Below are positions 1 through 20,067 of a DNA stretch of 44,979 nt, piece after piece (the first letter of the stretch is position 1; every line of letters begins with the position of its first letter). The stretch comes from Gammaproteobacteria bacterium (GTDB lineage Bacteria > Pseudomonadota > Gammaproteobacteria > Steroidobacterales > Steroidobacteraceae). The translations under genes and the position numbers were made by a program. The stretch covers positions 22,599-67,577 of the forward strand of contig PLEC01000011.1 of the NCBI GenBank assembly GCA_003136935.1, given 5' to 3'. The notes beneath the pieces are model-generated. The model did no database searches, was not told where the DNA came from, and saw only the letters and a list, made by a program, of their open reading frames with translations.

Positions 1-1089
1 GCGCAAGCGCCGGAGAGTTGCGGTGCCGTCATGGCGCATACGGTGACCGTTGCGGTGGCGCCGGTCCCCGGGGAACTCTCACGGCGCCACTCCCATGCGA
101 CCGAGTGGGTGTTGCTGACGTCCGGCACGACGGGCGCCCCGAAGCTGGTTCTCCACACCCTCGCGAGCCTCACGAGTGTGCTGGCGCAATGCGCTCCCGC
201 GCCCGGCAGCGCCCTGTGGAGCACGTTTTACGACATCCGCCGTTACGGCGGGCTGCAGGTGTTCCTGCGCGCCATGTATATCGGCTCGCTGCTGCTGTCA
301 GCGCCGGACGAGCCGGTGGGGGATTTCTTCGCGCGCGCACGCACTGCAGGGGTGACGCATATTTCCGGCACGCCATCACACTGGCGCCGGGCGCTGATGA
401 GCGGCACGACCGCCGCGCTGGCGCCAGCGTACGTGCGCCTGTCCGGAGAGATCGCCGACCAGGCGATCCTGGACAGCCTGCGCGCCGCCTACCCGCGCGC
501 GCGCATCGCGCACGCGTTCGCCTCCACCGAGGCGGGCGTTGCGTTCGAAGTCGACGACGGCCTGGCCGGCTTTCCGGCGGACCTGCTGCGTACGGCGGAC
601 GGAGAAATGCAGTTGCGGGTGATGGCCGATACGCTGCAGATCCGCTCGCCCGGAAATGCGGTGCGGTACCTTGGCGAGGAGGCGGGTGCACTGCGGCGCG
701 CCGATGGCTTCGTCGACACCGGCGACCGCGTCGAACTGCGCGGCGAGCGCTATCATTTCGTCGGCCGCGCCGGCGGAGTCATTAACGTCGGTGGCCTTAA
801 AGTACATCCGGAGGAGGTCGAAGCGGTGATCAACTCTCATCCGTGGGTGCGCATGTCGCTCGCCAGGGCGCGGCGTAGCCCGATCACCGGAGCGGTGGTG
901 ACGGCGGAGGTCGTGCTGGCGGAGCACGTCAGCGGTGCACGCGAGCGGCCGGCTGACGAGGCTCTGACGCAGGAAATTCTCGCGGCCTGCCGGCGTGCCC
1001 TGCCCGCACACAAGGTTCCTACCGTGATCCGCATCGTGCCGGCGCTCGAAGTCTCAGTTGCCGGAAAGCTGGTGCGTCCGAATGCGTAA
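1..1089 (+). CDS. AMP-dependent synthetase/acyl-CoA ligase, C-terminal part (5' partial at window edge)
   Basis: Frame open from base 1; P-loop-like motif LLTSGTTGAPKLV, later GDRVELRGERYHFVGRAGGVINVGGLKVHPEEVE (adenylate-forming family C-terminal motifs). Confidence 0.85.
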   Translation, partial: AQAPESCGAVMAHTVTVAVAPVPGELSRRHSHATEWVLLTSGTTGAPKLVLHTLASLTSVLAQCAPAPGSALWSTFYDIRRYGGLQVFLRAMYIGSLLLSAPDEPVGDFFARARTAGVTHISGTPSHWRRALMSGTTAALAPAYVRLSGEIADQAILDSLRAAYPRARIAHAFASTEAGVAFEVDDGLAGFPADLLRTADGEMQLRVMADTLQIRSPGNAVRYLGEEAGALRRADGFVDTGDRVELRGERYHFVGRAGGVINVGGLKVHPEEVEAVINSHPWVRMSLARARRSPITGAVVTAEVVLAEHVSGARERPADEALTQEILAACRRALPAHKVPTVIRIVPALEVSVAGKLVRPNA

Positions 1090-1816
1090 CATCATCGTGA
1101 CCGGGGCCAGCCGGGGCCTGGGGCTTGCGATCGCCTCCACGCTCGCCGCCGGCGGCGACTGCGTGATCGCCGTGGCGCGCAATGCGACCCCGGAGCTTAC
1201 CGCTGCGACTGCGGCCGCAACACGCGCCGGCAGCGGCGCGGTCGAGTTCCGCTCATTCGACCTCACCGACACTCCCGCAATTGCTGGCTTCGTCTCCGGG
1301 GTGCGCAAGGAGTTTGGGCCCCTCTACGGACTCGTAAACAATGCGGGTCTTGGCACGGCCGGGGTGCTCGCCATCATGCGCGAGGCTGACATCGAGCAGC
1401 TCACGCGCCTGAACGTCATCGCACCGCTGGTGCTGACCAAGCACGTCGTGCGTGCAATGATGCTCGAACGCGCCGGGCGTATCGTCAACATCAGCTCCAT
1501 CATAGGGTCAACCGGCTACCCGGGCCTGTCGGCGTATGCCGCCACCAAGGCGGCCCTGCAGGGGTTCACGCGCTCGCTGGCGCGCGAAGTGGGCTCGCTG
1601 GGTATAACCGTCAACGCGGTGGCCCCGGGGTTCATCAGCACCGAGATGACGGCCGACCTGGGGGAGGAGCAGCGCGAGCAGATCGTGCGCCGCAGCGCGC
1701 TTAAGCGCATGGCTGTTCCGCAAGACGTGGCCGCCGCAGTGGAGTTCCTCATGAGCGAGAAGGCGAAGAACATTACCGGCATCACGCTGACCGTGGATGC
1801 GGGGAACACCGCATGA
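1082..1816 (+). CDS. SDR-family oxidoreductase (FabG-like)
   Basis: MRNIIVTGASRGLGLAIA (TGxxxGxG), NNAG, S-x-YAATK catalytic motif; start overlaps the stop of the previous gene. Confidence 0.9.
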   Translation: MRNIIVTGASRGLGLAIASTLAAGGDCVIAVARNATPELTAATAAATRAGSGAVEFRSFDLTDTPAIAGFVSGVRKEFGPLYGLVNNAGLGTAGVLAIMREADIEQLTRLNVIAPLVLTKHVVRAMMLERAGRIVNISSIIGSTGYPGLSAYAATKAALQGFTRSLAREVGSLGITVNAVAPGFISTEMTADLGEEQREQIVRRSALKRMAVPQDVAAAVEFLMSEKAKNITGITLTVDAGNTA

Positions 1817-3093
1817 AGCCAGAGACGATTGCCCTGCACGGCGGGTTCGATTCGGATCCTACGACCAAGGCTGTCGCGGTGCCGATCTACCAGACGGTCG
1901 CGTACTCCTTCGACAGCGCGGCCCACGGCGCGGCATTATTCAACCTCGAGACGGAGGGTTACCGCTACAGCCGCATTTCCAACCCGACCAACGCGGTGCT
2001 GGAAGCGCGCGTGGCGCAGCTCGAGGGCGGCGCGGATGCATTGAGCGTGAGCTCCGGTCAGGCGGCGCTCTACTACTCGGTCCTGACGGTGACGCGCGCG
2101 GGGCTCAACATCGTTTCCCCGCCGCAGCTCTACGGCACTACCCATACCCTGTTTGCCCACGTGCTGCCGCAGCTCGGCATCCAGGTGCGTCTCGCGCAAT
2201 CTGATGAACCCGCAGCGCTCGCAGCCCTGATTGATGAGAACACGCGGGCGGTGTTCTGCGAGACCGTCGGCAACCCGGCGGGCAACGTCAGTGATCTCGC
2301 CGGGCTCGCCGCGGTCGCGCACGCGGCCGGGGTGCCTCTGATCGTGGACAACACCGTGCCGACACCCATACTCGTGCGCCCGATTGATCATGGCGCGGAC
2401 GTCGTGATCCACTCGCTCACCAAGTTCCTGGGCGGCCACGGCACCACGCTCGGCGGCATCATTATCGACAGCGGCAAGTTCCCCTGGAAACAACACGCGG
2501 CGCGCTTCCCGATGCTGACCGAACCAGATGAGTCCTACCATGGGCTCGTCTACACCGATCACTACGGCGCCTGCGCCTACATCGGACGCTGCCGTAGTGT
2601 CTTCCAGCGCACCATAGGCGCGGTGCTTGCGCCCATCAGCGCATTCCTGCTGCTGCAGGGTGTAGAAACCGTGGCGCTGCGGGTCGAGCGGCACGTCGAG
2701 AATGCGCGCCGCGTGGCTGAATTCCTGCGAGGTGATTCCCGTGTTGCTGCAGTAAGTTACGCGGGTTTCCCAGAAAGTCCCTACTATCCCCTGGTGCAGA
2801 AGTACCTGGGGGGTCGTGCCTGTTCGCTGCTGACGTTTGCAATCAAGGGGGGCTTTGAGGGTGGCGTACGCTTCTACGACGCGCTGCGCCTGTTCAAGCG
2901 GCTCGTGAACCTCGGGGATGCGAAGTCGCTGGCCTGCCATCCGGCGTCCACCACACATCGTCAAATGTCGCGCGAGGAACAGCGGCTCGCCGGCATCGGC
3001 CCCGAAACCATCCGCCTTAGTGTTGGTATCGAGCACATCGATGATATCATCGCCGATCTCGATCAGGCGCTGGCCGCAGCCACGGGTCCCTGA
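1813..3093 (+). CDS. Cys/Met-metabolism PLP enzyme, O-acetylhomoserine aminocarboxypropyltransferase (MetY)-like
   Basis: KPETIALHGGFDSDPTTKAVAVPIYQTVAYSFDSA...GYRYSRISNPTNAVLE...HSLTKFLGGHGTTLGGIIID (PLP lysine); ATGA overlap with the upstream SDR. Confidence 0.88.
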   Translation: MKPETIALHGGFDSDPTTKAVAVPIYQTVAYSFDSAAHGAALFNLETEGYRYSRISNPTNAVLEARVAQLEGGADALSVSSGQAALYYSVLTVTRAGLNIVSPPQLYGTTHTLFAHVLPQLGIQVRLAQSDEPAALAALIDENTRAVFCETVGNPAGNVSDLAGLAAVAHAAGVPLIVDNTVPTPILVRPIDHGADVVIHSLTKFLGGHGTTLGGIIIDSGKFPWKQHAARFPMLTEPDESYHGLVYTDHYGACAYIGRCRSVFQRTIGAVLAPISAFLLLQGVETVALRVERHVENARRVAEFLRGDSRVAAVSYAGFPESPYYPLVQKYLGGRACSLLTFAIKGGFEGGVRFYDALRLFKRLVNLGDAKSLACHPASTTHRQMSREEQRLAGIGPETIRLSVGIEHIDDIIADLDQALAAATGP

Positions 3094-4937: not shown

Positions 4938-5061
4938 GTCTGTTTGTAGCCGCGGCGGGTTCCCGTCATGATACGTGAACACCGTTTGCGGGCATGCCGA
5001 ATCACGTGCAACACATAATCGCCAGCGCCGCTGCGCTGCCGACGACGGGCACGAGGCGTTG

Positions 5062-6468
5062 ATGGCGCTGCGTGCTCCGGCAGCGGCGCTCTTCCCATCG
5101 CGCGCCCAGCGCGAGCGCCTGGATGATCTGCTGACGCGTACTCTGGCGGCGGCGGCCGAGCGCGTCGCGCGCGGTCCGGTCATGCCGGACCTGGACATGG
5201 TGCAGTTTCGCGCGGAGCTGGCACGTTTCGATTTCGCGGCCCCGCAAGACCTGCAGCGGCTCATTGGCTGGATCACGACGCAGCTCGAGCACGGTGCCGT
5301 GCATATGGGCAATCCGCGCTACTTCGGTCTCTTCAACCCGGCAGCCAACTTCCCTTCGCAGTGCGCCGATCGCATCAGCGGCGCATTTAACCCGCAGCTG
5401 GCGAGTTCCGGCTCCTCCCCGGCGCCGGTGGAGATCGAGGCGCACGTGGTGCGCGCGATCGCGCGGCGTGCGGGACTGCCCGACGAATCCGCCGGGCACT
5501 TCACCACTGCCGGATCCGAAGCCAACTACACCGCACTCCTGTGCGCCCTGACGCGTGCGGCGCCGGCCTTTGCGAGCGAGGGCGTGCGCGCGTTTTCAGG
5601 TCCGGTCGCGATGTACACCTCGCGCGAGTGCCAGCCAGCCTGGTTCAAGATCGCGCACCAGGCCGGAATCGGACGCGCCGCCCTGAAGCTGATCGCGACC
5701 ACCGCGCGCGGCGAAATGGACGGCGACGCGCTGACGCAGGCCATCGAGAGCGATCGGCGGGCGGGGGTTGTGCCGGTGCTGATCTCTGCCACCGCCGGCA
5801 CCACCGGTGGCGGCATGGTTGACCCGCTGGCGCACTGCGCAGACGTCGCGCGCAGCTACGGACTCTGGTACCACGTTGACGCGGCCTGGGGGGGCGCGGC
5901 GCTGTGCTCAGCGCGCCTGCGCGGTGTGCTCGCCGGCATCGAGCGGGCCGACTCGCTCACCATCGACGCTCACAAGTGGTTTGCCACCACCATGGGCTGC
6001 GGGATGTTCGTCACGCGCCACCCGGCGCTGCTGAGCGAGACGTTCCGGGCGGCGACGGACTTCATGCCTTCGACGGTTTCGGCGCTCGACCCGTACCTGA
6101 ACAGCGCGCAATGGTCGCGCCGCTTCATGGGACTGAAGCTGTTCCTGTCGCTGGCCACTGCCGGTTGGGACGGGTACGCCGTGCACGTGGAGCGGGCCGT
6201 GGAGGTGATCGCGCTGATTAGGGCGCGCCTGCTTGCCGCGGGCTGGTCAGCGCGTAACGACTCGCAACTCGCGGTGCTGTGCGTGGTGCCCCCGGACGGG
6301 TTTCCGAGCATTCGCGAGATCGTCCGCCGGGTACTCGCCTCGGGTCGCGCCTGGGTGGCGGCGACGAGCTTTGCCGGTCAGGAGGTGGTGCGGATCTGCG
6401 CAACCCACGGGGAGATCTCAGCCGCGGACATCGACGAACTGGTCGCGTCCTTAAACGCCGCGCGCTGA
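5062..6468 (+). CDS. Group II PLP-dependent decarboxylase (aromatic-L-amino-acid/glutamate decarboxylase-like)
   Basis: HFTTAGSEANYTALLCAL, YHVDAAWGGAALCS, SLTIDAHKWFATTMGCG (PLP lysine). Alternative upstream start at 4975. Confidence 0.88.
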   Translation: MALRAPAAALFPSRAQRERLDDLLTRTLAAAAERVARGPVMPDLDMVQFRAELARFDFAAPQDLQRLIGWITTQLEHGAVHMGNPRYFGLFNPAANFPSQCADRISGAFNPQLASSGSSPAPVEIEAHVVRAIARRAGLPDESAGHFTTAGSEANYTALLCALTRAAPAFASEGVRAFSGPVAMYTSRECQPAWFKIAHQAGIGRAALKLIATTARGEMDGDALTQAIESDRRAGVVPVLISATAGTTGGGMVDPLAHCADVARSYGLWYHVDAAWGGAALCSARLRGVLAGIERADSLTIDAHKWFATTMGCGMFVTRHPALLSETFRAATDFMPSTVSALDPYLNSAQWSRRFMGLKLFLSLATAGWDGYAVHVERAVEVIALIRARLLAAGWSARNDSQLAVLCVVPPDGFPSIREIVRRVLASGRAWVAATSFAGQEVVRICATHGEISAADIDELVASLNAAR

Positions 6469-6735
6469 CTCGCCCAGCCTGTTCAGCATCGCTTCGACCG
6501 AAGCGATGGACTCGAAATTTTCCGGCGTGATGTCGGTCTGGGGAATCGCAAGGTTGAATTCCACCTCGATGGCGAGCATCAGTTTCACCATCTTGATGGA
6601 GCTCATGCCGAGATCGCTTAAGCGCGCATCGATCGGCATGGGGCGCGCGCCACCCGCCTGGCCCAGGATCTGACGGATCAGGCCGATAAGGCGTTCGCGC
6701 GTGGTGGCCTGCGGCTGGGATTTCACGTCGTTCAT
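6451..6735 (-). CDS. Acyl/peptidyl carrier protein, candidate partner of the aa:CP ligase
   Basis: MNDVKSQPQATTRERLIGLIRQILGQ...DLGMSSIKMVKLMLAIEVEFNLAIPQTDITPENFESIASVEAML; DxGxSS phosphopantetheine serine. Confidence 0.85.
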   Translation of the reverse strand: MNDVKSQPQATTRERLIGLIRQILGQAGGARPMPIDARLSDLGMSSIKMVKLMLAIEVEFNLAIPQTDITPENFESIASVEAMLNRLGESARGV

Positions 6736-6740
6736 GGACT

Positions 6741-7757
6741 TCAGTGCACCGCTGTTGTGAGTGCGAGGGGTCGATGCGCGCTGGCATCGGGGCGTACCGC
6801 CCCCGCGAGCAACGCGAGCCAGTTGCCGTAGATGGTTGCCGCAGCGTCGGTCCAGGGATTGCCCAGGTCCAGCGCGGCCGCCGCAGTCGGAAAGTCCGCC
6901 AGCAGTTCCGGCCGCGGGCCCCGCAGCGCCCGCTGGCGGAACTCGTCCAGCACGGCGGATGCGGCGGGGGAGAAGTAATCGCGTGGCTGCAGCGGGTAGG
7001 CCGCCTGCTCGCCGCGCAGAAAGCGGCCGACATCGCGGCGATACTCCCTCAGGAGCGTGACATTCTCGTACTCGGGATGCCCCTGGAAGCACAGGAACAG
7101 GCTGCGCCGCTGGCGGATGAAGGTGTCCGCGCCGGTGGCGCCCGAGGAGCTGAGGATCGTGTATCCCGACTCGCGCAGCGCCACGATGGGTAAGTCGTTC
7201 CAACGGGAGTGCGGCAGCCTCAGCGGCGCCCCGATCCCGGCTGTGAGTGGATGCGCCGCCAGAATATCGTGGCGGAATACGCCGCAGAGCTTTTGCGCAA
7301 GGCGCTGCCGCTGCACACCGTCGAAGTGCAGTACGGCTGCGTGCGCGGCGAGGCACGAGCAGATGCTGGAGGCGGTATGGGCGTCCGCCCATTCCAGTAC
7401 CTCAACGAATCTTGGCCAGTACGGCTCCTCGGGCAGCGGGCGACCGCTGGCTTCCATGCCGGTGACGATCAGGGCATCCGGTGGATCGGATTGCAGCTCA
7501 TCGACGTGCCAGTAGCCGCGCGTGGCAATATGCTCGCGGGCCGCCGGCGTGCGCGCCACCTCAGGGAGGGTGAAAAACCGCAATTTCACGGGGTCGGAGC
7601 CGGCGGCGGTCTCGAGAAGCCGTGTGAACTGCGTCTCAGTGGATTCCAATGCCGAATCGGGCATGTTGTTCACCAGCCCCACCACGACGCCGCGCGCGCG
7701 CTCCGACGCTCTGGCGGCGGGCGTCCGGCGGGGGCTGGATTCGATTTCAAGCGGCAT
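6741..7757 (-). CDS. MetA-like homoserine O-acyltransferase (GATase-like fold), divergent
   Basis: GLVNNMPDSALESTETQFTRLL, DALIVTGMEASGRPLPEEPYWPRFVEVLEWA, candidate catalytic Cys in SSICSCLAAHAAVLHFDGV, LCFQGHPEYENVTLLREYRRDV (His/Glu pair). Confidence 0.82.
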   Translation of the reverse strand: MPLEIESSPRRTPAARASERARGVVVGLVNNMPDSALESTETQFTRLLETAAGSDPVKLRFFTLPEVARTPAAREHIATRGYWHVDELQSDPPDALIVTGMEASGRPLPEEPYWPRFVEVLEWADAHTASSICSCLAAHAAVLHFDGVQRQRLAQKLCGVFRHDILAAHPLTAGIGAPLRLPHSRWNDLPIVALRESGYTILSSSGATGADTFIRQRRSLFLCFQGHPEYENVTLLREYRRDVGRFLRGEQAAYPLQPRDYFSPAASAVLDEFRQRALRGPRPELLADFPTAAAALDLGNPWTDAAATIYGNWLALLAGAVRPDASAHRPLALTTAVH

Positions 7758-7871
7758 CGGGCTTTACTTAAATATAATGTTCAATGGCTTGAGGCCGTCG
7801 ACAGATCCGTCAAGTCCCTACTGGTAGCTTAGCGGTCAAGTACGACGAAAACATAGATAAAGGTCACTAAC

Positions 7872-9080
7872 GTGGAAGCGTCGCCGACGACTGCGGCGGG
7901 TGCGCGGGGCACCGATGCCCAGCCCGCCGATTTAAGAACCCGGGCCCGCGCGGTCGCGGCGATCGCCGCGCAGCACGCGCCTGACGTAGACAGCGCCGCA
8001 CGCTTTCCGGCCGAGGCGTTCGCCGCGGTCAAGGCGCAGCGACTGCTCGGCATCGCGGTGCCGAAAGCCGCTGGCGGCGAGGGCGCCTCCATCGCCGACG
8101 TGGCCGATGTCTGCTACCAGCTCGGTCAGTCATGCGCCTCGACCGGCATGATCTACGCGATGCACCAGATCAAGATCGCCTGCATCCAGCGCCACATGCG
8201 CGGCAGCGCGACCCTGGCGGAGACCTTGCGTCGCGTGTGCGCGGAGCAGCTGCTGCTGGCGTCTTCGACCACGGAGGGGCAGGGCGGCGGCAATGTGCGC
8301 TCCAGCGAGGCGCCGATCGAGTACCAGGAAGGACGCATCACGCTCGAGCGTGCAGCGAGCGTCATATCCTACGGCGCGTACGCGGATGGCATCGTCACGA
8401 CGGCACGCCGCACCAGCACCTCATTGCCGTCGGATCAGGTGCTGATCGCGTTTCTGAAAGCCGACTACACGCTGACGCGACTACAGGGATGGAACACGCT
8501 CGGCATGCGTGGCACCTGCAGCGAGGGGTACACCCTGCGTGCCTCGGGGGTTCCCGGGCAGATCATGCCCGACGCGTACGAGATCATTCACGCCCAGACC
8601 ATGGTGCCCACGGCGCACCTCTTGTGGGGTTCGGTGTGGACGGGCATCGCCGCCGGCGCCGTGACGCGCGCCCAGGCCTTTATCCGCCAGGCGGTGCGTG
8701 CGAGCGGCGGCAACATGCCGCCCGGTGCGCCGCAGTTCACCAAGGCGCTGGGCACGCTGCGGACGTTACGCGGGATGCTCGCGACCTCGCTGCGCACTTA
8801 CGAGCGCAGCATGGGCGATCCCAAGGCGCTCGCCTCGCTGGAATTTCAGTCCATGATCACGCTCACCAAGGTCGAGGCGTCGGAACTCGCGGTGGCAACC
8901 GTCATGAGCGCCCTGCGTGCGTGCGGACTGTCCGGCTATCGCAGTGACAGCGAGTTCAGCATCGAGCGCCACCTGCGCGACGTACTGTCCTCGCCGATCA
9001 TGATCAACAACGACCGCATTCTGGCGAACCTCGCCAATTCGGCGCTGCTGACACCGATTCCGGGCTCGGTGCGCGACTGA
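7872..9080 (+). CDS. Acyl-CoA dehydrogenase family protein
   Basis: DSAARFPAEAFAAVKAQRLLGIAVPKAAGGEGASIADVADVCYQLGQSCASTGMIYAMHQI; LQGWNTLGMRGTCSEGYTLRASGVP; typical ACAD layout. Confidence 0.88.
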   Translation: MEASPTTAAGARGTDAQPADLRTRARAVAAIAAQHAPDVDSAARFPAEAFAAVKAQRLLGIAVPKAAGGEGASIADVADVCYQLGQSCASTGMIYAMHQIKIACIQRHMRGSATLAETLRRVCAEQLLLASSTTEGQGGGNVRSSEAPIEYQEGRITLERAASVISYGAYADGIVTTARRTSTSLPSDQVLIAFLKADYTLTRLQGWNTLGMRGTCSEGYTLRASGVPGQIMPDAYEIIHAQTMVPTAHLLWGSVWTGIAAGAVTRAQAFIRQAVRASGGNMPPGAPQFTKALGTLRTLRGMLATSLRTYERSMGDPKALASLEFQSMITLTKVEASELAVATVMSALRACGLSGYRSDSEFSIERHLRDVLSSPIMINNDRILANLANSALLTPIPGSVRD

Positions 9081-9085
9081 CCGCC

Positions 9086-9997
9086 GTGGCGGCCGTTTCC
9101 AGCAACCAGGATCCGCTCGCCCCGGTGGCGGCGGCGCTGTTTCATCCGCTGGGCGTGGACGGCGTGTACGCGCGCACGGCCCTCTACGAGGGCATGATCG
9201 AACGGTTGACGGCCTGGATTTCCCGGCAGCGCGATCCGCGCGCGGAGGTGCTGCGCTTCCCGCCGGTCATGAGCCGCAGCCAGGTGGAAAAATCCGGCTA
9301 CCTGAAGAGTTTCCCCAACCTGCTCGGGTGCGTGTGCGCGCTGCATGGCTCGGAGGCGCAGATCCGCACCGCCGCCCAGGAACACGAGACCGGCGGCGAC
9401 TGGACCCGCGCGCTCACCCCATCCGACCTCGTGCTGTCCCCGGCTGCGTGCTATCCGGTCTATCCGCTCGCGGCGGCCCGCGGGCCGGTGCCCGCCGGCG
9501 GGCTGCTGTTCGATGTCGCGGCGGACTGTTTTCGTCACGAGCCGTCGCGGGCCCTGAATCGTCTGCAATCCTTTCGCATGCGTGAGTTCGTGCGCATTGC
9601 CACGCCGGAGGAAATCACGACATTTGGCGAGTACTGGATGGCGCGCGCGCCGCAACTGGCCGCTGAGCTGGCGTTGCCGTGCAAACTCGACGTGGCGAGC
9701 GATCCGTTTTTCGGCCGCGTGGGGCAGATCATGGCGGTTAGCCAGCGGCAGCAGGCGCTGAAGTTTGAGCTGCTGATTCCCTATCATGAAGGCGCGGTGC
9801 CTACGGCCTGCATGAGCCTTAACTATCACCGTGACCACTTCGGCGGTGTCTGGCAGCTGGCGAATGCCGCCGGCGAGCGCTCGCACACCAGCTGCTTCGC
9901 GTTTGGCGTGGACCGGCTGACTATCGCGCTGTTCTGCGTGCACGGCGTGGACGTGCCGGGCTGGCCGCAGGGAGTCCGGCGCGCGCTCGCGATCTAG
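9086..9997 (+). CDS. Amino acid:[carrier protein] ligase (stand-alone class II aaRS catalytic domain, atypical SerRS-like)
   Basis: About 303 aa without a tRNA-binding arm; motif 2-like CFRHEPSRALNRLQSFRMREFVRI; motif 3-like FAFGVDRLTIALF; Cys (AACYPVYP), Glu (MREF), Cys (HTSCFAFG) could form the Cys-Glu-Cys zinc site of this family. Confidence 0.82.
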   Translation: MAAVSSNQDPLAPVAAALFHPLGVDGVYARTALYEGMIERLTAWISRQRDPRAEVLRFPPVMSRSQVEKSGYLKSFPNLLGCVCALHGSEAQIRTAAQEHETGGDWTRALTPSDLVLSPAACYPVYPLAAARGPVPAGGLLFDVAADCFRHEPSRALNRLQSFRMREFVRIATPEEITTFGEYWMARAPQLAAELALPCKLDVASDPFFGRVGQIMAVSQRQQALKFELLIPYHEGAVPTACMSLNYHRDHFGGVWQLANAAGERSHTSCFAFGVDRLTIALFCVHGVDVPGWPQGVRRALAI

Positions 9998-10010
9998 AGG
10001 CCGCCCATGC

Positions 10011-10943
10011 ATGCCGCTCGATCCCTACGCCAAGAGGTTTCTTGACCGTCTCGTCGCACTGAACCCGCCGAGCGCCTTGTCCTTGTCCGTCGCCGAGCGC
10101 CGTGAGGCGCTTGCCAACCTTCTCAGCCTGTCCGCCGACGGCGCGCCCGACGCCACGGTGGAGGATCGCGTCATCCCGGGGCCTGGCGGGGCGCTCCCCG
10201 TGCGCATCTACACGCCTGCCGGGCAGCCTCACGGCCGTCTGCCCGCGCTCGTGTATTTTCACGGCGGCGGCCTGGTCGCGGGCACTCTCGATTCCTATGA
10301 CGGCATCGCACGCGAACTCGCCCATGCGAGCGGTTGCCGGCTCATTGCGGTCGGCTACCGGCTCGCTCCGGAAGCGCCATTCCCGGCGGCGGTCGAGGAT
10401 GCCTGCGCGGCGACGGCCTGGATCGCGGCGCACACGGAGGACTTCGCGGTCGATCCTGAGCGCCTGTGCGTCGCCGGCGATTCGGCCGGCGCGACCCTCG
10501 CCGCGGTGGTGTGTCAGAGAGCGGCTGGCAGCGGACTGCATCTGGCGCTGCAGTTTCTCTTGTGCCCGATCCTGGATCATGCGGGGGTGACGCCTTCGCG
10601 GCGCGCCTTCGACGCGGGGTACCTGGTGGATGCGGCCACGCTCGCGCACGACCTCAGGCACTACCTCGGAGCGGCGGGCGATGTGCACGACCCGCGCGTC
10701 TCGCCTTTGCGTGGTGCCGGGCTGCGCGGGCTGCCACCGGCCTGCATCCATACCGCGGAATTTGATCCGCTGCGCGATGAGGGCCGGGACTACGCGGCAG
10801 CTCTGCAGGACGCGGGCGTGAGGACGCTATATCGCTGTCACTTAGGTATGATCCACCTGTTCTACGGTATGGGGGTCGTCATTCCGTACGCGGCGGTCGC
10901 GTATCGGGAGATGGGCGCCGATATTCGTTCGCTGCTGAGCTGA
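10011..10943 (+). CDS. Alpha/beta hydrolase fold-3 (HSL-like) esterase/lipase
   Basis: VYFHGGGLVAGTLDSYD (HGGG), GYRLAPEAPFPAAVED, VAGDSAGATLAA (GDSAG). Confidence 0.9.
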   Translation: MPLDPYAKRFLDRLVALNPPSALSLSVAERREALANLLSLSADGAPDATVEDRVIPGPGGALPVRIYTPAGQPHGRLPALVYFHGGGLVAGTLDSYDGIARELAHASGCRLIAVGYRLAPEAPFPAAVEDACAATAWIAAHTEDFAVDPERLCVAGDSAGATLAAVVCQRAAGSGLHLALQFLLCPILDHAGVTPSRRAFDAGYLVDAATLAHDLRHYLGAAGDVHDPRVSPLRGAGLRGLPPACIHTAEFDPLRDEGRDYAAALQDAGVRTLYRCHLGMIHLFYGMGVVIPYAAVAYREMGADIRSLLS

Positions 10944-10957
10944 GACGAGGTAAGTGC

Positions 10958-11341
10958 GTGACGGATCGCCGCGATACCGACCAGTTGTTGCGCGAGTTGC
11001 ACGCAGCACGAGTCGCAGGGCAACTAGAGAGGCTGTGCGCTGTATTTGCCGGGGATGCAGTATTCCGCATCGCCGGCACGAGTGAGGGCAAGCCGATTGC
11101 GATCGCCGCAACCGGCATCGAGGAAATCCGGACGTGGCTCGCGATGCTGGTCAAGACGTTCAGACTTACCGGATATGAAGCGTCCCCGAGTGTGATCGAG
11201 GGTCACCGGGCAATGATCAACTGGCGCGCCCAGATCCATTCCAAGATCACCGGTGCTGTCGTGTCCACCGAGCTGGTGGATCTGGTCGAAGTGCGAAATG
11301 GCCGCATCGGCTCGTACTTCGAGCTGTTCGTGCCGCGTTAG
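10958..11341 (+). CDS. SnoaL/NTF2-like protein
   Basis: About 127 aa, DTDQLLRELHAARVAGQLERLCAVFAGDAVFRIAG...NGRIGSYFELFVPR, typical NTF2-like pattern. Confidence 0.75.
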   Translation: MTDRRDTDQLLRELHAARVAGQLERLCAVFAGDAVFRIAGTSEGKPIAIAATGIEEIRTWLAMLVKTFRLTGYEASPSVIEGHRAMINWRAQIHSKITGAVVSTELVDLVEVRNGRIGSYFELFVPR

Positions 11342-11352
11342 GGGTCAGGAAG

Positions 11353-11592
11353 ATGTCGGTGAGGTCCACGATCACGTCCCTTTTTGAGCAGGTCGCACGC
11401 GAGCAGCAACGAACGCTTGCGCCGCTGTCCGATGATCTGAAGCTCCTGAAGTCGGGCCTGGACTCGTTGAGCTTCGCGCTCATTGTCGCGCGTCTGGAAG
11501 ATACGCTCGGCTACGACCCGTTCGAGACCGCCGAGAGTTTCCCGGTGACCTTCGGCGATTTCGTCAAACTATACGAAAGCCGGCCCAAGTAG
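11353..11592 (+). CDS. Acyl carrier protein
   Basis: LKLLKSGLDSLSFALIVARLEDTLGYDPFETAESFPVTFGDFVKLYE; GLDSL phosphopantetheine motif. Confidence 0.85.
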   Translation: MSVRSTITSLFEQVAREQQRTLAPLSDDLKLLKSGLDSLSFALIVARLEDTLGYDPFETAESFPVTFGDFVKLYESRPK

Positions 11593-11676: not shown

Positions 11677-13449
11677 CTACAGCCGCAGGGTGCCGGCGCG
11701 GATGTGCTCGTGCAGGGTGGCATCCATTTTCACGTAGGCCGCAGCGCGACGGTCGTCGAAGTAGAGCGGATCGCTCACCTGCGCCGGATCGAACCCCTGT
11801 TGGGCGAGTTTCCGGCTTCTGTGTCTGAATGTTCCGGTCAGCTCGAGCGACGCCACCAGCCGCACGAACAGCGGCCGCGCATAGGCCGGCAGCTTCTCCG
11901 CCACGTAAAGCCGGAAGTCGTCGAGGTCGAAGCGCGCATCGACGACTAACGCGACCATGCCGGCGCGACCTTCGTGATGTGGCACGGTGACGCCGTACAC
12001 GGCGGCGTCGGCGACTCCGTGAAAGGCGCTGATCACGGACAATACCTCGGTCGTGGAGACGTTTTCTCCCTTCCAGCGGAAGGTGTCGCCGGCGCGATCC
12101 ACGAAGTAAAAAAATCCGTCGCCGTCCTGGCGCATCAGGTCGCCGGTCCGGTACCAGGCGTCGCCTGGCTCGAAAACGTCCTGCAGCACTTTCTTTTTCG
12201 AGGCCTGGGTATCCGCGTAGCCCTCGAAGTGTCCGCCGGCCGCGTCGTCGCGGCTGGAGAGCCTGCCGATCGCCTCGCCGACTTCCCCCGGCGCGCAGCG
12301 TTCACACCATCCGGCCGCGTTGCGCAGTGGTGCGCCGCTGTCCGCATCGACTTTCGCCAGCACGACGGCGGCGCGCTGCGCGAGAAAAGCTGGAATTTTC
12401 CCGATGGCGCCGCGGCGGCCCTCGCAGTTGTAGAGCGAGAAGCTGCCCTCGGTCGCCGCGTAGTACTCGAGGATCTGCGGAATGCGGAAGCGTTCCTGGA
12501 ATTGCTCCCAGACATCCGCGCGCAGTCCGTTGCCGCAGCACAGGCGCAGCGTGTGATGGGTTTCCGCCTCCTGGTGCGGACTCGCCACGAGGTAGCGGCA
12601 CAGTTCACCGATGTACTGGAACAACGTACAGCGCTCTGCAACGACGTCGGGCCAGAAGTCGCTCGCTGAAAACCGTTCGAGCAGCACCACCGTGGCGCCA
12701 CCCACGAGCGGCGCGCCGGCCGCCACCACGCCACCGATGCTGTGGTACATCGGCAGGCAGTTGTACATCCGGTCACCCGGGTGGATCGCCATCATGCCGG
12801 CGAACCAGTGCGTCCACTGGACTATGCGGTAATGGCTGACGTTGGCAGCCTTGGGTGCGCCCGTCGTTCCGGAAGTGTAGATGCACAGTGCGCGGTCGGT
12901 GAGCGCCGGCAGCGCGCGCTCCGCAGCCGTCAGCGAGCGCGCCGACTCGCGCTCCACGGTGCGCTCCAGGCGTGGCAGCTGACCATCGTCGCCGCCGTGG
13001 ACCCAGCAGCGCACGCTATCCGCAAATCCCGCGCGCGCGGACGCCAGGGCGGCAGCCAGGGTTGCCGAAGTGATCAGGTGTCGGGGTGCGGCGGAACGGA
13101 TGGCGTGCGCGAGCAGCTCGCCGCTCAGATAGGTATTAAGAAGCGCAGCCGTGACGCCGATCCTGGTGAGTCCCAGCCAGATGGCCAGATACTCCGGACA
13201 ATTGGTCATGAGCAGGCACACCGAGTCGCCCGGGGACAGACCCTGGGACAGCCCCCAGCGCGCGTAGCGTGCTGCGGATTCGGCGAGCGTGCGGTAGGTT
13301 AGAGTCAGGCCTGAGAACTCAAGTGCAGGCGTTGAGTCAAAGCGTTCCGCCAGGTCTTCGATAATGATTGGAAAGATGGCCGACTGGCCTCGTTCGACGG
13401 GCGCTGTCGCTTGCAGCGCGCGCAGCCAAGCTTTCGCCGGTGAACTCAC
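11677..13449 (-). CDS. Long-chain/very-long-chain acyl-CoA synthetase (FATP-like AMP-binding enzyme)
   Basis: LCIYTSGTTGAPKAANVSHYRIVQW, EYYAATEGSFSLYN, WYRTGDLMRQDGDGFFYFVDRAGDTFRWKGENVSTTEV. Confidence 0.9.
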   Translation of the reverse strand: MSSPAKAWLRALQATAPVERGQSAIFPIIIEDLAERFDSTPALEFSGLTLTYRTLAESAARYARWGLSQGLSPGDSVCLLMTNCPEYLAIWLGLTRIGVTAALLNTYLSGELLAHAIRSAAPRHLITSATLAAALASARAGFADSVRCWVHGGDDGQLPRLERTVERESARSLTAAERALPALTDRALCIYTSGTTGAPKAANVSHYRIVQWTHWFAGMMAIHPGDRMYNCLPMYHSIGGVVAAGAPLVGGATVVLLERFSASDFWPDVVAERCTLFQYIGELCRYLVASPHQEAETHHTLRLCCGNGLRADVWEQFQERFRIPQILEYYAATEGSFSLYNCEGRRGAIGKIPAFLAQRAAVVLAKVDADSGAPLRNAAGWCERCAPGEVGEAIGRLSSRDDAAGGHFEGYADTQASKKKVLQDVFEPGDAWYRTGDLMRQDGDGFFYFVDRAGDTFRWKGENVSTTEVLSVISAFHGVADAAVYGVTVPHHEGRAGMVALVVDARFDLDDFRLYVAEKLPAYARPLFVRLVASLELTGTFRHRSRKLAQQGFDPAQVSDPLYFDDRRAAAYVKMDATLHEHIRAGTLRL

Positions 13450-15186: not shown

Positions 15187-15336
15187 CCGGTATACTAAAG
15201 CTGGGCGGTGCGCGGCGCCAACCAGCGAACATAGCCGCATGTGGCCGAAGAGCTTGTGGCCACCGTACAAGAACCATTAAAAACTGCCGGTGAGGATGTG
15301 CCGGCGAGGCGCATGAGGCTCAAGGGGAATCACTCG

Positions 15337-16806
15337 ATGCCATATACACGCGCGCTGTCACTGCGCGTTGGGGCGCCGCCCATGCTGCTGCTCACGGCGC
15401 TGGTGGCTGTGCTCTACTGGCCGAGCCTCGCCGCGCTCCTCAGGGTATGGGGACGTGATCGGGGGGCCGGGGCCTACTCCCAGGGCTACCTGATCGCCGC
15501 CGTGTCCGTGTGGATGCTGGTCATGCGCGGGCGCGAGACTGCGGCGCGTCTGCAACCGAGTCTACCGATGCTACCCGCGGTTCTCGGCCTCGGGTTCCTG
15601 TGGCTGATCTGCGCGCGCGCCGGCATTCAGACCGCGGAGGCACTGCTGTTGCCGCTCATCCTGTGGGTGGCTATCCGCGCGGCGTTCGGCGCCCAGCTCG
15701 CGCGCGCCAGCCTGTTTCCGTGCGCGTTCCTGCTATTCGCGATCCCCGTCTGGGACGTGTTGCTCGCCCCCTTGCAGGCCGTTACCACGCAGGCGGCGGC
15801 GCGCATCCTCTGGCTCGTGCGGGTACCCACGGCTGTCACCGGAAATTTCATCCACATCAATGCCGGCACGTTCGAAATCGCCCCCGGATGCAGCGGCCTC
15901 GGCATGCTGCTTGTCGGGCTTGCGACCGCAGCGCTATACGGCGAGATGCAGCGCCAGCCCGTGAGCCGTCGTCTGGTCCTATTCGCACTCGCGGCGGCCT
16001 TAAGCCTGCTGGCGAACTGGATTCGCGTCGCCGCCATCGTCTACGCCGGCTATCTCAAGGGCATGAACACCTCCCTGGTACGGGATCATTACGGGTTTGG
16101 CTGGGTCGTGTTCGCCGTCATACTGCTTGCCTTTTTCCCGCTCGCGAGACGCCTCGCGAACGCGCCTGAGGCACCCGGTTTGCAGGCGACGGCGGGCGGG
16201 GTCACGGGGCACTTCGGAGTCGCCGCGGCGTTGATTCTCGCCTGTCTTGCGATCGGTCCGGCGTGGCAACTCGCGGCAGACTGGCGCGAGCCGCCGCACG
16301 TGACGGCCGATCTGCCGCGGGACCCGAGCGCGAACTGGACCGGGCCGCACGCGGCGCCTCAGGGTTGGGCGCCGCAGTTTCCGGGAGCGGATGCGCAGCG
16401 CATCGGCGTGTACCTGCGTGGTGAACAGCGCATCACCGCCTTCACCGCGGCGTATGCCGTGCAACGGCATGCCAAAAAACTCGTCGGCTACGGCGTTGAG
16501 ATTCTCGATGAGGATGAGAGGCTGCTGTCAGACAAACGGATTGATGTCGGGGGGCAGTCCGTTTCGGAAATCGAGGCCGAGTCACCCGGGGACGGGCATG
16601 CCCTCGTGTGGCTCAGATACACCGTCGGCGCGCGCCGTTTCACCTCCGGCTGGTGGGCGCAGCTTGGTTACGGTTGGGCCTCCCTGTTCAAGTCGCCGGG
16701 CTCCAGCGTTATGTTGCTCCGCGCACAGTGCGATGGGGACTGCGCGGCTGCCCGCACCAGCCTTACGCAGTTCGTTACGGACACAGGGGTTCTCGCGGGC
16801 ACCTGA
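15337..16806 (+). CDS. xrtA: Exosortase A fused to EpsI-like C-terminal domain
   Basis: Polytopic; catalytic motifs APGCSGLGML (Cys), LANWIRVAAIV (Arg), VRDHYGFGWVVF (His); C-terminal EpsI-like region (WAPQFPGADAQRIGVYLRGEQ...VWLRYTVGARRFTSGWWAQLGYG). Alternative start at 15241. Confidence 0.9.
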   Translation: MPYTRALSLRVGAPPMLLLTALVAVLYWPSLAALLRVWGRDRGAGAYSQGYLIAAVSVWMLVMRGRETAARLQPSLPMLPAVLGLGFLWLICARAGIQTAEALLLPLILWVAIRAAFGAQLARASLFPCAFLLFAIPVWDVLLAPLQAVTTQAAARILWLVRVPTAVTGNFIHINAGTFEIAPGCSGLGMLLVGLATAALYGEMQRQPVSRRLVLFALAAALSLLANWIRVAAIVYAGYLKGMNTSLVRDHYGFGWVVFAVILLAFFPLARRLANAPEAPGLQATAGGVTGHFGVAAALILACLAIGPAWQLAADWREPPHVTADLPRDPSANWTGPHAAPQGWAPQFPGADAQRIGVYLRGEQRITAFTAAYAVQRHAKKLVGYGVEILDEDERLLSDKRIDVGGQSVSEIEAESPGDGHALVWLRYTVGARRFTSGWWAQLGYGWASLFKSPGSSVMLLRAQCDGDCAAARTSLTQFVTDTGVLAGT

Positions 16807-16900: not shown

Positions 16901-17539
16901 ATGGAGATGGATCAAAAGATTTTGAACGGTCGCCCACGGATTGCGGCGCTCGGGATGCTCGTGCTTGCCAGCGCGCTGGGACAGGGAATCGCTGTTGCCT
17001 GGGGGGCGCCACCGGCGCCGGCCCCGAGCACGGTCTCCCCGGATTACGTGATCGGCCCGGGGGACAGCCTGCAGATTTTCGTGTGGCGTAACCCGGAACT
17101 CACGATCAACGTGCCGGTGCGACCGGACGGCAAGATCTCGACGCCGCTCGTCGAGGACATGCCGGCGGTCGGCAAGACACCCACTCAACTGGCGCGGGAC
17201 ATCGAGAAAGTCCTGGCGGTTTACGTGAAGCAGCCCCAGGTGAACGTCATCGTGACGCAGCCGGCGAGTGCCTTCAGCCAGGTCAAGGTCATCGGACAGG
17301 TGCAGCACGCCTTCGGCGTGCCCTATCGCGAGGGCATGACGGTCATGGATGCCGTGCTCGCCGTGGGCGGATTGACGCCCTTCGCCGCGGGCAACCGCGC
17401 GCAGCTGGTGCGCACCATCGACGGCAAGGAGTACCAGATTCCCGTGAGACTTGATGCGTTGTTAAACCACGGCGACATGAGCCAGAACCTGCCCGTACGG
17501 CCCGGCGATGTACTCGTCGTGCCGGAAAGCCGCTTCTAA
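16901..17539 (+). CDS. Polysaccharide export protein (Wza/EpsE-like, XrtA locus type)
   Basis: DYVIGPGDSLQIFVWRNPELTINVPVRPDGKISTPLVEDM...VNVIVTQPASAFSQVKVIGQV; SLBB-like repeat and VRPGDVLVVPESRF end. Confidence 0.9.
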   Translation: MEMDQKILNGRPRIAALGMLVLASALGQGIAVAWGAPPAPAPSTVSPDYVIGPGDSLQIFVWRNPELTINVPVRPDGKISTPLVEDMPAVGKTPTQLARDIEKVLAVYVKQPQVNVIVTQPASAFSQVKVIGQVQHAFGVPYREGMTVMDAVLAVGGLTPFAAGNRAQLVRTIDGKEYQIPVRLDALLNHGDMSQNLPVRPGDVLVVPESRF

Positions 17540-17553
17540 AGTAAGGAGACTGC

Positions 17554-19143
17554 GTGAGTCCGGCGCTGGAAAGACTAATGGATGAGGTGCACGGCGCCTG
17601 GCGCTACCGCTGGGCGGGGCTGGCCGCGGCGTGGCTGGTGGCGGTGCTCGGCTGGCTTTACGTGTTCGCGCTCCCGGACAACTATGAGGCCAGTTCGCGC
17701 GTATTCGTTGACACGCGCACGGTGCTGCGCCCCGCGTTGCAGGGACTCGCCCTGAACGAGGATCTCAACGCGGAGCTTAACTACGTGCGCCAGGCGCTGC
17801 TCGCAGGTCCCCAGCTGCAGAAGATCGCCGAGGAGGCGGGCATGCTGCCGGCGGGGGCGAGCCGGGAGCGCAAGCAGGGGGTGCTGACGAACCTGGTCAG
17901 AGGCACGCAGATTGCCGTGCGCAGCGCGAGCGAGCGTGAAGATGACCGCACCGCGGGCAACATATACCGCATCAGCTACCAGGACCCCAGTCGCGCCCGG
18001 AGCCTGAAGGTGGTGTCGATTCTGACCCGTGACCTCGTATCGGGGACCCTGGGCAGCACGCACGCGGAATCCGAGAGCGCGCAGAGATTCCTGGAGACGC
18101 AGCTGCACGACTACGAGGGGCGCCTGAACGGTTCCGAAGCGAAGCTCGCTGCATTCAAATCAGCGCACCTGGGCGTCATGCCGACGGAGGCCGGTGGCTA
18201 CTTTGCGCAGCTGCAGAAAGAGAACGAACTCGTCGAGGACACGCAGAACAAGCTGCGCACCGCGGAGAGCCGCCGTACTACGCTCGAGCGGCAGCTGCGT
18301 GGTGACGCGGTGGTCTCGGCAGTGGGAACCAGCTCGCTCTCCGGCGGCGGCGGCGGCGACACACTGTCGCGAATCGCGGAGACCCAGGCGCACCTGGATG
18401 ATCTGCTGCTGCGCTACACGGACAAGCATCCGGACGTCATCGCCACCCGGGCGACACTGGAAGAGTTGAAGAGGCGCCGCGCGGCCGAGATCGACAGCCT
18501 CCGGCGCGGCGACGCAGGAGCCGCCGCCACCAGCAGGGCGAGCGCGAGCCCCGTCTACCAGGGCATTGCACTCGCGCTGAATCAGGCGGAAGTGGACATC
18601 TCGGACCTGAGCAGCGAGCTGACGGATCACCGGGCGAAGGCGCAGGAGCTGCGCAAGATGCTCAACACCGCGCCGGAGGTGGAGGCGCAGTACGCGCAGC
18701 TCGCACGTGACTACGAAGTCAACCGACAGCAGTACACGGCGCTGCTCGAGAACTACGACAAGACCAAGCTTGGACAGCGGGCTAACGATGCGGGCTCAGT
18801 ACGCTTCACGCTGGTGCAGCCACCGTCCGTGGACTCCAATCCGGTGTCGCCCGATCGGCCGTTGCTGCTCATTGGAGTCCTGCTCGCGGCGCTCGCGGCG
18901 GGGGTGGGTGCGGCGTACGGCCTGAATCTGCTGCAGCCGGTGGCCGGCTCGGCGCGCGCGCTCGCGACGCTCACCGGGGTGACGGTATTGGGGGTGGTCG
19001 GCAACGCCTTCCCGGTGCGCACCGCCCGGACGGCCCGGCACGACGCGCGCCGGGTTTACCTGGCTACCGCGTGTCTCGTGGCAACTTTTGCAGCCATCCT
19101 GGTGCTCAGCAACGCCGGCTGGCGCATGAACCTGTCATTTTAA
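17554..19143 (+). CDS. Chain-length determinant / Wzz-GNVR protein (XrtA locus EpsF-like)
   Basis: AWRYRWAGLAAAWLVAVLGWLYVFALPDNYEASSRVFVDTRTVLRPALQGLAL..., coiled-coil middle, GNVR-like EVEAQYAQLARDYEVNRQQYTALLENYDK, C-terminal TM. Confidence 0.9.
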   Translation: MSPALERLMDEVHGAWRYRWAGLAAAWLVAVLGWLYVFALPDNYEASSRVFVDTRTVLRPALQGLALNEDLNAELNYVRQALLAGPQLQKIAEEAGMLPAGASRERKQGVLTNLVRGTQIAVRSASEREDDRTAGNIYRISYQDPSRARSLKVVSILTRDLVSGTLGSTHAESESAQRFLETQLHDYEGRLNGSEAKLAAFKSAHLGVMPTEAGGYFAQLQKENELVEDTQNKLRTAESRRTTLERQLRGDAVVSAVGTSSLSGGGGGDTLSRIAETQAHLDDLLLRYTDKHPDVIATRATLEELKRRRAAEIDSLRRGDAGAAATSRASASPVYQGIALALNQAEVDISDLSSELTDHRAKAQELRKMLNTAPEVEAQYAQLARDYEVNRQQYTALLENYDKTKLGQRANDAGSVRFTLVQPPSVDSNPVSPDRPLLLIGVLLAALAAGVGAAYGLNLLQPVAGSARALATLTGVTVLGVVGNAFPVRTARTARHDARRVYLATACLVATFAAILVLSNAGWRMNLSF

Positions 19144-19170
19144 CCTCTGGTAAGACCCCTGGTGAACTAA

Positions 19171-20067
19171 GTGAGCCTCATCGAAAACACCCTCGGGAAA
19201 GTGCGGCGCGCCGCCGCCGCCGCCGCCGCCGCCAAACCGGAACCGCTGGCGCCGCGCGCCGTCGGGGTGCCCGTGCCCTCCGAGGCGCTGGCTGATTCCT
19301 CCACGCTGCCGGATTACGACTACCGTCGTGTGGCGGTTGATCTCGCTGCGCTGCGCGCGGCGGGACACGTGCCGGATGCCAGCGAGGATCAGCGCTTCGC
19401 GGAGCACTTCCGCCGCATCAAGCGCTCGGTCGTTGCCAAGGCCACGGGCACTGGCGCTGTTGCCGACTCGCGGCTAGTCGCAGTCACGAGCCCGCTGCCA
19501 GGTGATGGCAAGACCTTCACCAGTGTCAACCTCGCGTTCAGCCTGGCCCGCGAGCGGGATCTGTCCGTGCTGCTGGTGGACGCGGACCTGCACAAGTCGC
19601 AGATCACGCAGGATCTCGGCCTTGAGGATCAGCCGGGACTGGTGGATGCGCTCCTGGATGAGTCGTGCGACGCGGAGTCCCTCGTCCTGCGCACGGATAT
19701 TCCTGGTCTCGACATCCTGCCCGCCGGCCGTTCGGTCGAAGATGCTCCGGAACTCGCCGCCAGCGCGCGCATGGCGCAGATCGTGGCGCGGCTCGCCGCG
19801 CGCAACCCGCGCCGGCTGGTGTTGCTCGACTGCGCGCCGGTGCTGGCCGCGAGCGAGGTCCGGGGCCTCATGCAGCTTTCCGGACAGGTACTGCTCGTCG
19901 TGCGGGCCGGTCAGACACCGCAGCAGGCGGTCGTGGATGCCATCGCGCAGCTTGATCCGAAACGCTTGCTGGGCCTGGTCCTGAATGACGCGCGGCACGG
20001 TGCGGCGACCTACTACGGCTATAGCGGTTACTACGGAGCGCTGGACGATGCTGCGCGCGCCGGTTAG
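19171..20067 (+). CDS. BY-kinase / CpsD-CapB-like tyrosine autokinase (XrtA-associated)
   Basis: VTSPLPGDGKTFTSVNLAFSLA (Walker A), VLLVDADLHKSQ (Walker A'), LVLLDCAPVL (Walker B), C-terminal tyrosines YYGYSGYYG. Confidence 0.88.
   Translation: MSLIENTLGKVRRAAAAAAAAKPEPLAPRAVGVPVPSEALADSSTLPDYDYRRVAVDLAALRAAGHVPDASEDQRFAEHFRRIKRSVVAKATGTGAVADSRLVAVTSPLPGDGKTFTSVNLAFSLARERDLSVLLVDADLHKSQITQDLGLEDQPGLVDALLDESCDAESLVLRTDIPGLDILPAGRSVEDAPELAASARMAQIVARLAARNPRRLVLLDCAPVLAASEVRGLMQLSGQVLLVVRAGQTPQQAVVDAIAQLDPKRLLGLVLNDARHGAATYYGYSGYYGALDDAARAG

Follow-up and report, generated by a model that had tools for sequence, protein, structure and literature searches.

We analyzed a 44,979-nucleotide stretch of DNA from a soil bacterium, Gammaproteobacteria bacterium (Steroidobacteraceae; assembly GCA_003136935.1, contig PLEC01000011.1, positions 22,599–67,577 of the forward strand), hereafter the window, and conclude from sequence comparison that its gene 9086..9997 does encode a class II amino acid:[carrier protein] (aa:CP) ligase of the Bll0957 family. 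Together with an adjacent flavoenzyme and a nearby carrier protein, this ligase probably forms an aminoacyl carrier protein module of clade A, the Bll0957 type, a reading in which we place moderate confidence and in which an amino acid would be loaded onto the carrier, oxidized while bound to it and then off-loaded. The three genes at the core of this proposal, all of which had been placed correctly by an initial annotation made from the sequence, are:

6451..6735, minus strand: predicted aminoacyl carrier protein (PF00550, 35 bits; match to 4h2s chain C)
7872..9080, plus strand: predicted flavoenzyme of the acyl-CoA dehydrogenase (ACAD) fold without the catalytic glutamate (PF02771, 40.8 bits; structural model and Foldseek)
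9086..9997, plus strand: predicted class II aa:CP ligase, clade A (303 aa; NF005479, identity to Bll0957, tree)

Enzymes of the aa:CP ligase family, with structures, have been known since 2010. The initial annotation had assigned 9086..9997 to this family, and the hidden Markov model search bears this out: the protein scores 429.8 bits against NF005479 ('amino acid--[acyl-carrier-protein] ligase'; curated cut-off 357 bits). Its top match in the Protein Data Bank (PDB) is Bll0957 (3mey and others, E 2.4e-129), with 186/294 aligned residues identical (63%) over nearly the whole length. As had also been proposed, the 303-residue protein is a class II catalytic core without a tRNA-binding domain, and residues 8-301 align to Bll0957. 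The suggested Cys-Glu-Cys zinc site is likewise present, as the predicted ligands C122, E167 and C270 (codons 9449-9451, 9584-9586 and 9893-9895) align with the Bll0957 zinc ligands C131, E176 and C279.

To place these genes in context, we read ligase neighborhoods from 80 named loci from genome contigs and from a phylum-wide sample of 399 genomes. The resulting set of 118 loci comprises 111 with a family ligase (90 in clade A, including the window, and 21 in clade B) and 7 with distant homologues, meaning ligase-like proteins that score below the NF005479 cut-off. These loci are not independent of one another, since many are from Bradyrhizobium and at least one record is present in both samples. 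The zinc ligands are kept in 118/118 aligned ligases, across both clades and the distant homologues. Six alignment positions differ between the clades, and none of the six could be assigned to a choice of glycine versus alanine. Bll0957 has been shown in the literature to use glycine and to load it onto a carrier, and glycine is most likely the amino acid loaded by the window ligase as well.

The protein encoded at 6451..6735, which the initial annotation had noted as a nearby carrier without giving its minus strand, is, among PDB entries, most similar to 4h2s chain C ('Aminoacyl carrier protein 1', E 1.1e-15), the carrier that was co-crystallized with Bll0957. Phosphopantetheine is predicted to be attached at Ser46 (codon 6600..6598). 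The gene begins 5 bp past a MetA-type gene (6741..7757, minus strand) and runs in the same direction, and this pair is divergent from the flavoenzyme gene 7872..9080. These comparisons support 6451..6735 as the putative cognate carrier of the window ligase. Upstream of the window, the same contig encodes a 4'-phosphopantetheinyl transferase (PF17837, PF01648; L003:16165-16839, contig C34), a possible activator of this carrier and of a second window carrier, ACP2 (11353..11592), which had been overlooked in the initial annotation.

The evidence that the flavoenzyme belongs with the ligase is their conserved linkage. At 110/111 family-ligase loci the gene immediately preceding the ligase, co-directional with it and separated by at most 102 bp, encodes a flavoenzyme (clade A, 81/81 and 9/9 with the window included; clade B, 20/21), whereas an ACAD-like partner was found upstream of the distant ligase homologues at 0/7 loci. 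Of the 101 loci of the two clades for which sufficient sequence was available, 97 have a carrier gene within 5 kb of the ligase. This linkage supports the view that the flavoenzyme is a near-obligatory partner of the ligase, and the independent part of the argument is its recurrence in different lineages and in two layouts, with the carrier gene divergent in clade A and co-directional in clade B.

Clade A, which contains the window ligase and Bll0957, and clade B, the Agrobacterium type, each occupy one side of a branch in the ligase tree (support 77 and 92). In the flavoenzyme tree the clade A sequences group together with full support, and the clade B members fall outside them. In one assembly that carries both types (G105, loci L045 and L158), each ligase adjoins a flavoenzyme of its own clade. 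The clades also differ in gene content: DUF1839 is present in 20/21 and a GH2 gene in 19/21 clade B loci, and both are found in 0/90 clade A loci, the window included. A single clade B locus has lost the ACAD, DUF1839 and GH2 genes, and it belongs to a second ligase in the window's own genome (L004:16006-19049, contig C34, ~17 kb past the window end), whose carrier and hydrolase genes are intact. Beside this second ligase we found short remnants of the other genes, namely 46 residues of GH2, part of the N terminus and the final 12 residues of the ACAD, and the last 11 residues of DUF1839. The system has decayed here, or else the metagenome-assembled genome is misassembled at this point. The distant ligase homologues (L147-L153, ~130-175 bits), which come from other proteobacterial families, keep the zinc ligands and are without the ACAD partner; only one of them has a weak carrier match within 5 kb. 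They form a separate, uncharacterized branch.

The flavoenzyme gene, called an acyl-CoA dehydrogenase in the initial annotation, ends exactly 5 bp before the ligase start, as had been stated there. Its product has both the N-terminal domain (PF02771) and the fold of the ACAD family, the latter with a Foldseek probability of 1.00 for the predicted structure (pLDDT 83, pTM 0.85). We aligned the flavoenzymes to the acyl-CoA dehydrogenase 3pfd as a reference for the YEG catalytic glutamate. In this alignment the SCAD/MCAD-type catalytic position is I378 in the window protein, and the IVD/LCAD-type position, placed from the same alignment together with the known isovaleryl-CoA dehydrogenase site, is A248. 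Neither position is occupied by glutamate or aspartate in any of 63 members (45 clade A and 18 clade B). The two clades share an alternative set of residues, W207, H249, W252, W256, M377, N380 and R382, which are invariant or nearly so and to which an LGMRGT stretch belongs.

Foldseek ranked TdsC, 3-sulfinopropionyl-CoA desulfinase, DszC and nitrososynthases highest for this protein, and true ACADs followed closely; a search of a viral structure library found only a distant giant-virus acyl-CoA oxidase. The nearest folds thus include the ACAD-fold flavin monooxygenases DszC/TdsC and the nitrososynthases DnmZ/KijD3, and a W-D/N-T-LGMR stretch is common to the window flavoenzyme and the type-2 ACAD 5z8t. 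Identity to these monooxygenases is only 17-20%, however, and the C-terminal domain of the flavoenzyme family is nearer to PF00441. As the monooxygenase-type C-terminal domain PF08028 was not matched by the window protein, we rejected plain membership in the type-2 flavin monooxygenases and retain only the notion that the enzyme may work like one. From these features canonical α,β-dehydrogenation appears disfavored, and oxidation at the nitrogen or the α-carbon fits better than desaturation; the enzyme may act as an oxidase, a C-N dehydrogenase or a monooxygenase.

We propose the following order of events. First, the class II ligase would adenylate an amino acid, likely glycine, and attach it to the 6451..6735 carrier through the thiol of the phosphopantetheine group, a step that we infer for the window because of the 63% identity to Bll0957 and the conserved zinc site. 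Second, the flavoenzyme would oxidize the carrier-bound amino acid at its nitrogen or α-carbon, rather than between the α- and β-carbons, either by N-hydroxylation or by oxidizing the C-N bond, which would yield an iminoacyl or a glyoxylyl thioester. Third, a clade-specific acyltransferase would off-load the modified group: for clade B this would be DUF1839, for Bradyrhizobium a protein with the GNAT fold and for the window, as a weak candidate, the MetA-type enzyme. Fourth, an AMP-dependent ligase, ACP2, FabG and FATP, along with MetA, MetY and a decarboxylase, may contribute further components of a small molecule or conjugate.

The off-loading candidates differ in how they are placed. DUF1839 comes after the ligase in clade B and is a papain-like family (PMC10318531); for Atu2574, its Agrobacterium member, formation of an amide bond to a cell-surface sugar was predicted in 2010 (PMC2922099). 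By analogy only, the butirosin enzymes BtrI and BtrH also load, tailor on the carrier and transfer in a papain-like manner, although the DUF1839 counterpart in this parallel is a clade B feature that is not in the window. Among Bradyrhizobium clade A loci, a gene without a Pfam match follows the ligase in 51/53 cases, and the predicted structure of its product has a GNAT-type acyltransferase fold. The same GNAT gene also adjoins clade A triads of carrier, flavoenzyme and ligase outside Bradyrhizobium (L089:11836-12699 and L178:13435-14292). A search of the window's genome for DUF1839 gave no match, in a search that was without a positive-control signal. The MetA-type enzyme beside the carrier gene is a weak candidate off-loader for the window, on position alone.

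Around the triad, the window contains a wider set of genes with the following predicted products:

1..1089, plus strand: AMP-dependent ligase, 5' end outside the window (PF00501/PF13193); recurrent with ACP2 and FabG
1058..1816, plus strand: FabG-like short-chain reductase (PF13561, 170 bits); recurrent
1813..3093, plus strand: MetY-type O-acetylhomoserine aminocarboxypropyltransferase (TIGR01326, 585 bits, cut-off 495); recurrent
4975..6468, plus strand: pyridoxal phosphate (PLP)-dependent group II decarboxylase (PF00282, 193 bits); recurrent in gammaproteobacterial clade A loci
6741..7757, minus strand: MetA-type homoserine O-acyltransferase (NF003776, 380 bits, cut-off 358); recurrent in clade A
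10011..10943, plus strand: alpha/beta hydrolase of the hormone-sensitive-lipase type, an esterase (PF07859, 219 bits); recurrent in clade A
10958..11341, plus strand: SnoaL-like (NTF2 fold) protein (PF12680, 43.9 bits); recurrent
11353..11592, plus strand: second acyl carrier protein, ACP2 (79 aa, GLDSLSF motif; 136 bits against the ACP2 family of clade A)
11677..13449, minus strand: long-chain acyl-CoA synthetase of the FATP type (NF006134, 716 bits, cut-off 625); recurrent

The genes from 7872 to 11592 (flavoenzyme, ligase, esterase, SnoaL-like protein and ACP2) are spaced 5 to 14 bp apart and look like one operon. Counting gene content within 10 kb of the triads, we observed that MetY, MetA, the AMP ligase, ACP2, FabG and FATP are found repeatedly near clade A triads, in several lineages and with varying gene order. 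The esterase, the SnoaL-like protein and the PLP-dependent decarboxylase join them in gammaproteobacterial, betaproteobacterial and Rhodospirillales clade A loci; a class IV aminotransferase, a thiamine diphosphate-dependent enzyme and GNAT do so instead in alphaproteobacterial ones. From this recurrent, shuffled content we infer that the wider cluster may serve one pathway. No description of it was found in the literature searched, which excluded primary papers on the ligase family, and the shuffled clade A cluster is apparently previously undescribed. Genes for methylthioadenosine phosphorylase and MtnA beside Bradyrhizobium triads were seen only in close relatives and were not counted as linkage. 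In Rhodopseudomonas (L058 and L049) the clade A cluster lies ~10 kb or less from fix-type electron transfer flavoprotein genes, possibly by chance. L003:13997-15349, also gammaproteobacterial, encodes a member of the HMG-CoA reductase family (PF00368, 327 bits), with acyltransferase and MMPL-like genes next to it.

Because the window's genome contains a MetX-like gene and four more PF01053 genes that are complete or almost so, the MetA and MetY of the window are probably extra copies; a role of this pair in plain methionine biosynthesis is possible, but the same genes argue against it. One specific version, improbable as it stands, is that the clade A cluster encodes an undescribed small-molecule pathway in which glycine bound to the carrier would be oxidized at its nitrogen or α-carbon by the glutamate-less ACAD-fold enzyme. 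Dedicated MetA and MetY would then use this unit, as acyl group or as nucleophile, to build a γ-substituted homoserine derivative, and the product would be a non-proteinogenic amino acid or a conjugate.

Several observations weigh against the module as proposed here. The glycine preference is extrapolated from a single characterized relative. The Foldseek E-values of monooxygenases and true ACADs differ by less than two orders of magnitude, the dehydrogenase-type C-terminal domain PF00441 is found in 29/30 flavoenzyme members (the window member falling below its cut-off) and PF08028 in only 2/30, and no flavin reductase was seen to recur across the clusters. Neither of the off-loading genes, DUF1839 or GNAT, was found in the window. 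Finally, at 41 bll0957-type Bradyrhizobium loci the triad and GNAT are present and the MetA/MetY/ACP2 set is missing from the surrounding 10 kb, so the wider gene set is not obligatory.

We weighed the module against other explanations. It is possible, though unlikely, that the module decorates a cell-surface glycan by placing the modified aminoacyl group on an amino sugar of the exopolysaccharide encoded from ~15 kb onward in the window. Such a role was proposed in 2010 for the clade B context (PMC2922099, note in proof), where GH2 and DUF1839 are found, and a region of exopolysaccharide/PEP-CTERM type adjoins the clade A cluster from 15241, with an exosortase (EpsH/XrtA type) and polysaccharide export, chain-length and tyrosine-kinase-like genes (15241-16806 and 16901-20067); the second, clade B ligase is on the same contig. 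Against this, clade A loci lack DUF1839 and GH2 and carry MetA/MetY and acyl-activating genes instead.

A less probable explanation is that the substrate of the flavoenzyme is a different thioester from the cluster (acyl-ACP2, or an acyl-CoA formed by the AMP ligase or the FATP-type ligase), or that the enzyme catalyzes a non-redox, desulfinase-like elimination, and is merely co-regulated with the ligase. The desulfinase among the best folds and the fatty-acyl activating enzymes of the cluster are consistent with this, but the ACAD is still there at the many triads (the same 41 Bradyrhizobium loci and all clade B loci) that are without ACP2, the AMP ligase and FATP within 10 kb.

PigA and PltE enzymes desaturate their substrates between the α- and β-carbons. 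By analogy with them, the initial annotation had proposed that the flavoenzyme oxidizes an aminoacyl thioester to a dehydroamino or imino species. The ACAD superfamily, the conserved linkage to a carrier-protein ligase and a C-terminal domain nearer to PF00441 are in keeping with a dehydroaminoacyl product, formed for instance from an alanyl thioester. The prolyl-PCP dehydrogenases PigA, RedW and PltE likewise use an ACAD fold on an amino acid bound to a carrier. The window protein nevertheless scores only 36.8 bits with the PigA model (cut-off 500) and 26.9 bits with the RedW model (cut-off 650), which places it outside that group. Since there is no glutamate at either catalytic position and glycine has no β-carbon, which would make the reaction chemically impossible with glycine as substrate, we regard desaturation of this type as improbable; of the original proposal the imino product survives, as one possibility.

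That 9086..9997 is a seryl-tRNA synthetase (SerRS) fragment or another tRNA-charging paralogue is ruled out at the sequence level as next to impossible, because its distant similarity to archaeal-type SerRS in the PDB search covers a core of only ~200 residues and the SerRS models give 57 and 40 bits (cut-offs 611 and 490), in contrast to the NF005479 score and the near full-length identity to Bll0957.

Among the closest known counterparts of the module as we propose it are Bll0957, aminoacyl carrier protein 1 and bll0958 of Bradyrhizobium diazoefficiens (4h2s-4h2v), with which it shares the ligase clade, the zinc site, the cognate carrier and the ACAD neighbor. The bll0957-type loci differ in having a GNAT gene after the ligase and in lacking the MetA/MetY/AMP-ligase/ACP2/FATP/esterase/SnoaL/decarboxylase set. 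By locus number bll0957 and bll0958 ('acd', annotated as an acyl-CoA dehydrogenase) are neighbors, and both are up in a phaR mutant (PMC10888616). Agrobacterium Atu2571 (carrier), Atu2573 (ligase) and Atu2574 resemble the window in combining a ligase and a carrier with a redox enzyme, the partner that the 2010 note in proof proposed to modify the carrier-bound amino acid (PMC2922099). Clade B, in which we place Agrobacterium by inference, is unlike the window in its co-directional carrier-ACAD-ligase order and its DUF1839 and GH2-type glycosidase. For a published assay of an ACAD with an aminoacyl carrier protein, or a function for Atu2572 or bll0958, the literature searched yielded nothing beyond these two papers. 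The ligase family, its carriers and structures, the bll0957/bll0958 adjacency and the redox-partner proposal were already known; new here are how widely the linkage holds, the division into two clades, the missing catalytic glutamate with its alternative signature, the split between GNAT and DUF1839, and the clade A cluster.

The initial annotation had described the physiological product of aa:CP ligases as unresolved, and a 2022 review still calls their biological role unknown (PMC9437257). A near-universal flavoenzyme partner with a conserved active-site signature of its own, clade-specific off-loaders and a defined set of clade A enzymes narrow this question to a small number of reconstitutions. 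The corrected chemistry matters for their design, as an assay for α,β-dehydro products alone would miss an N-hydroxy or imino product.

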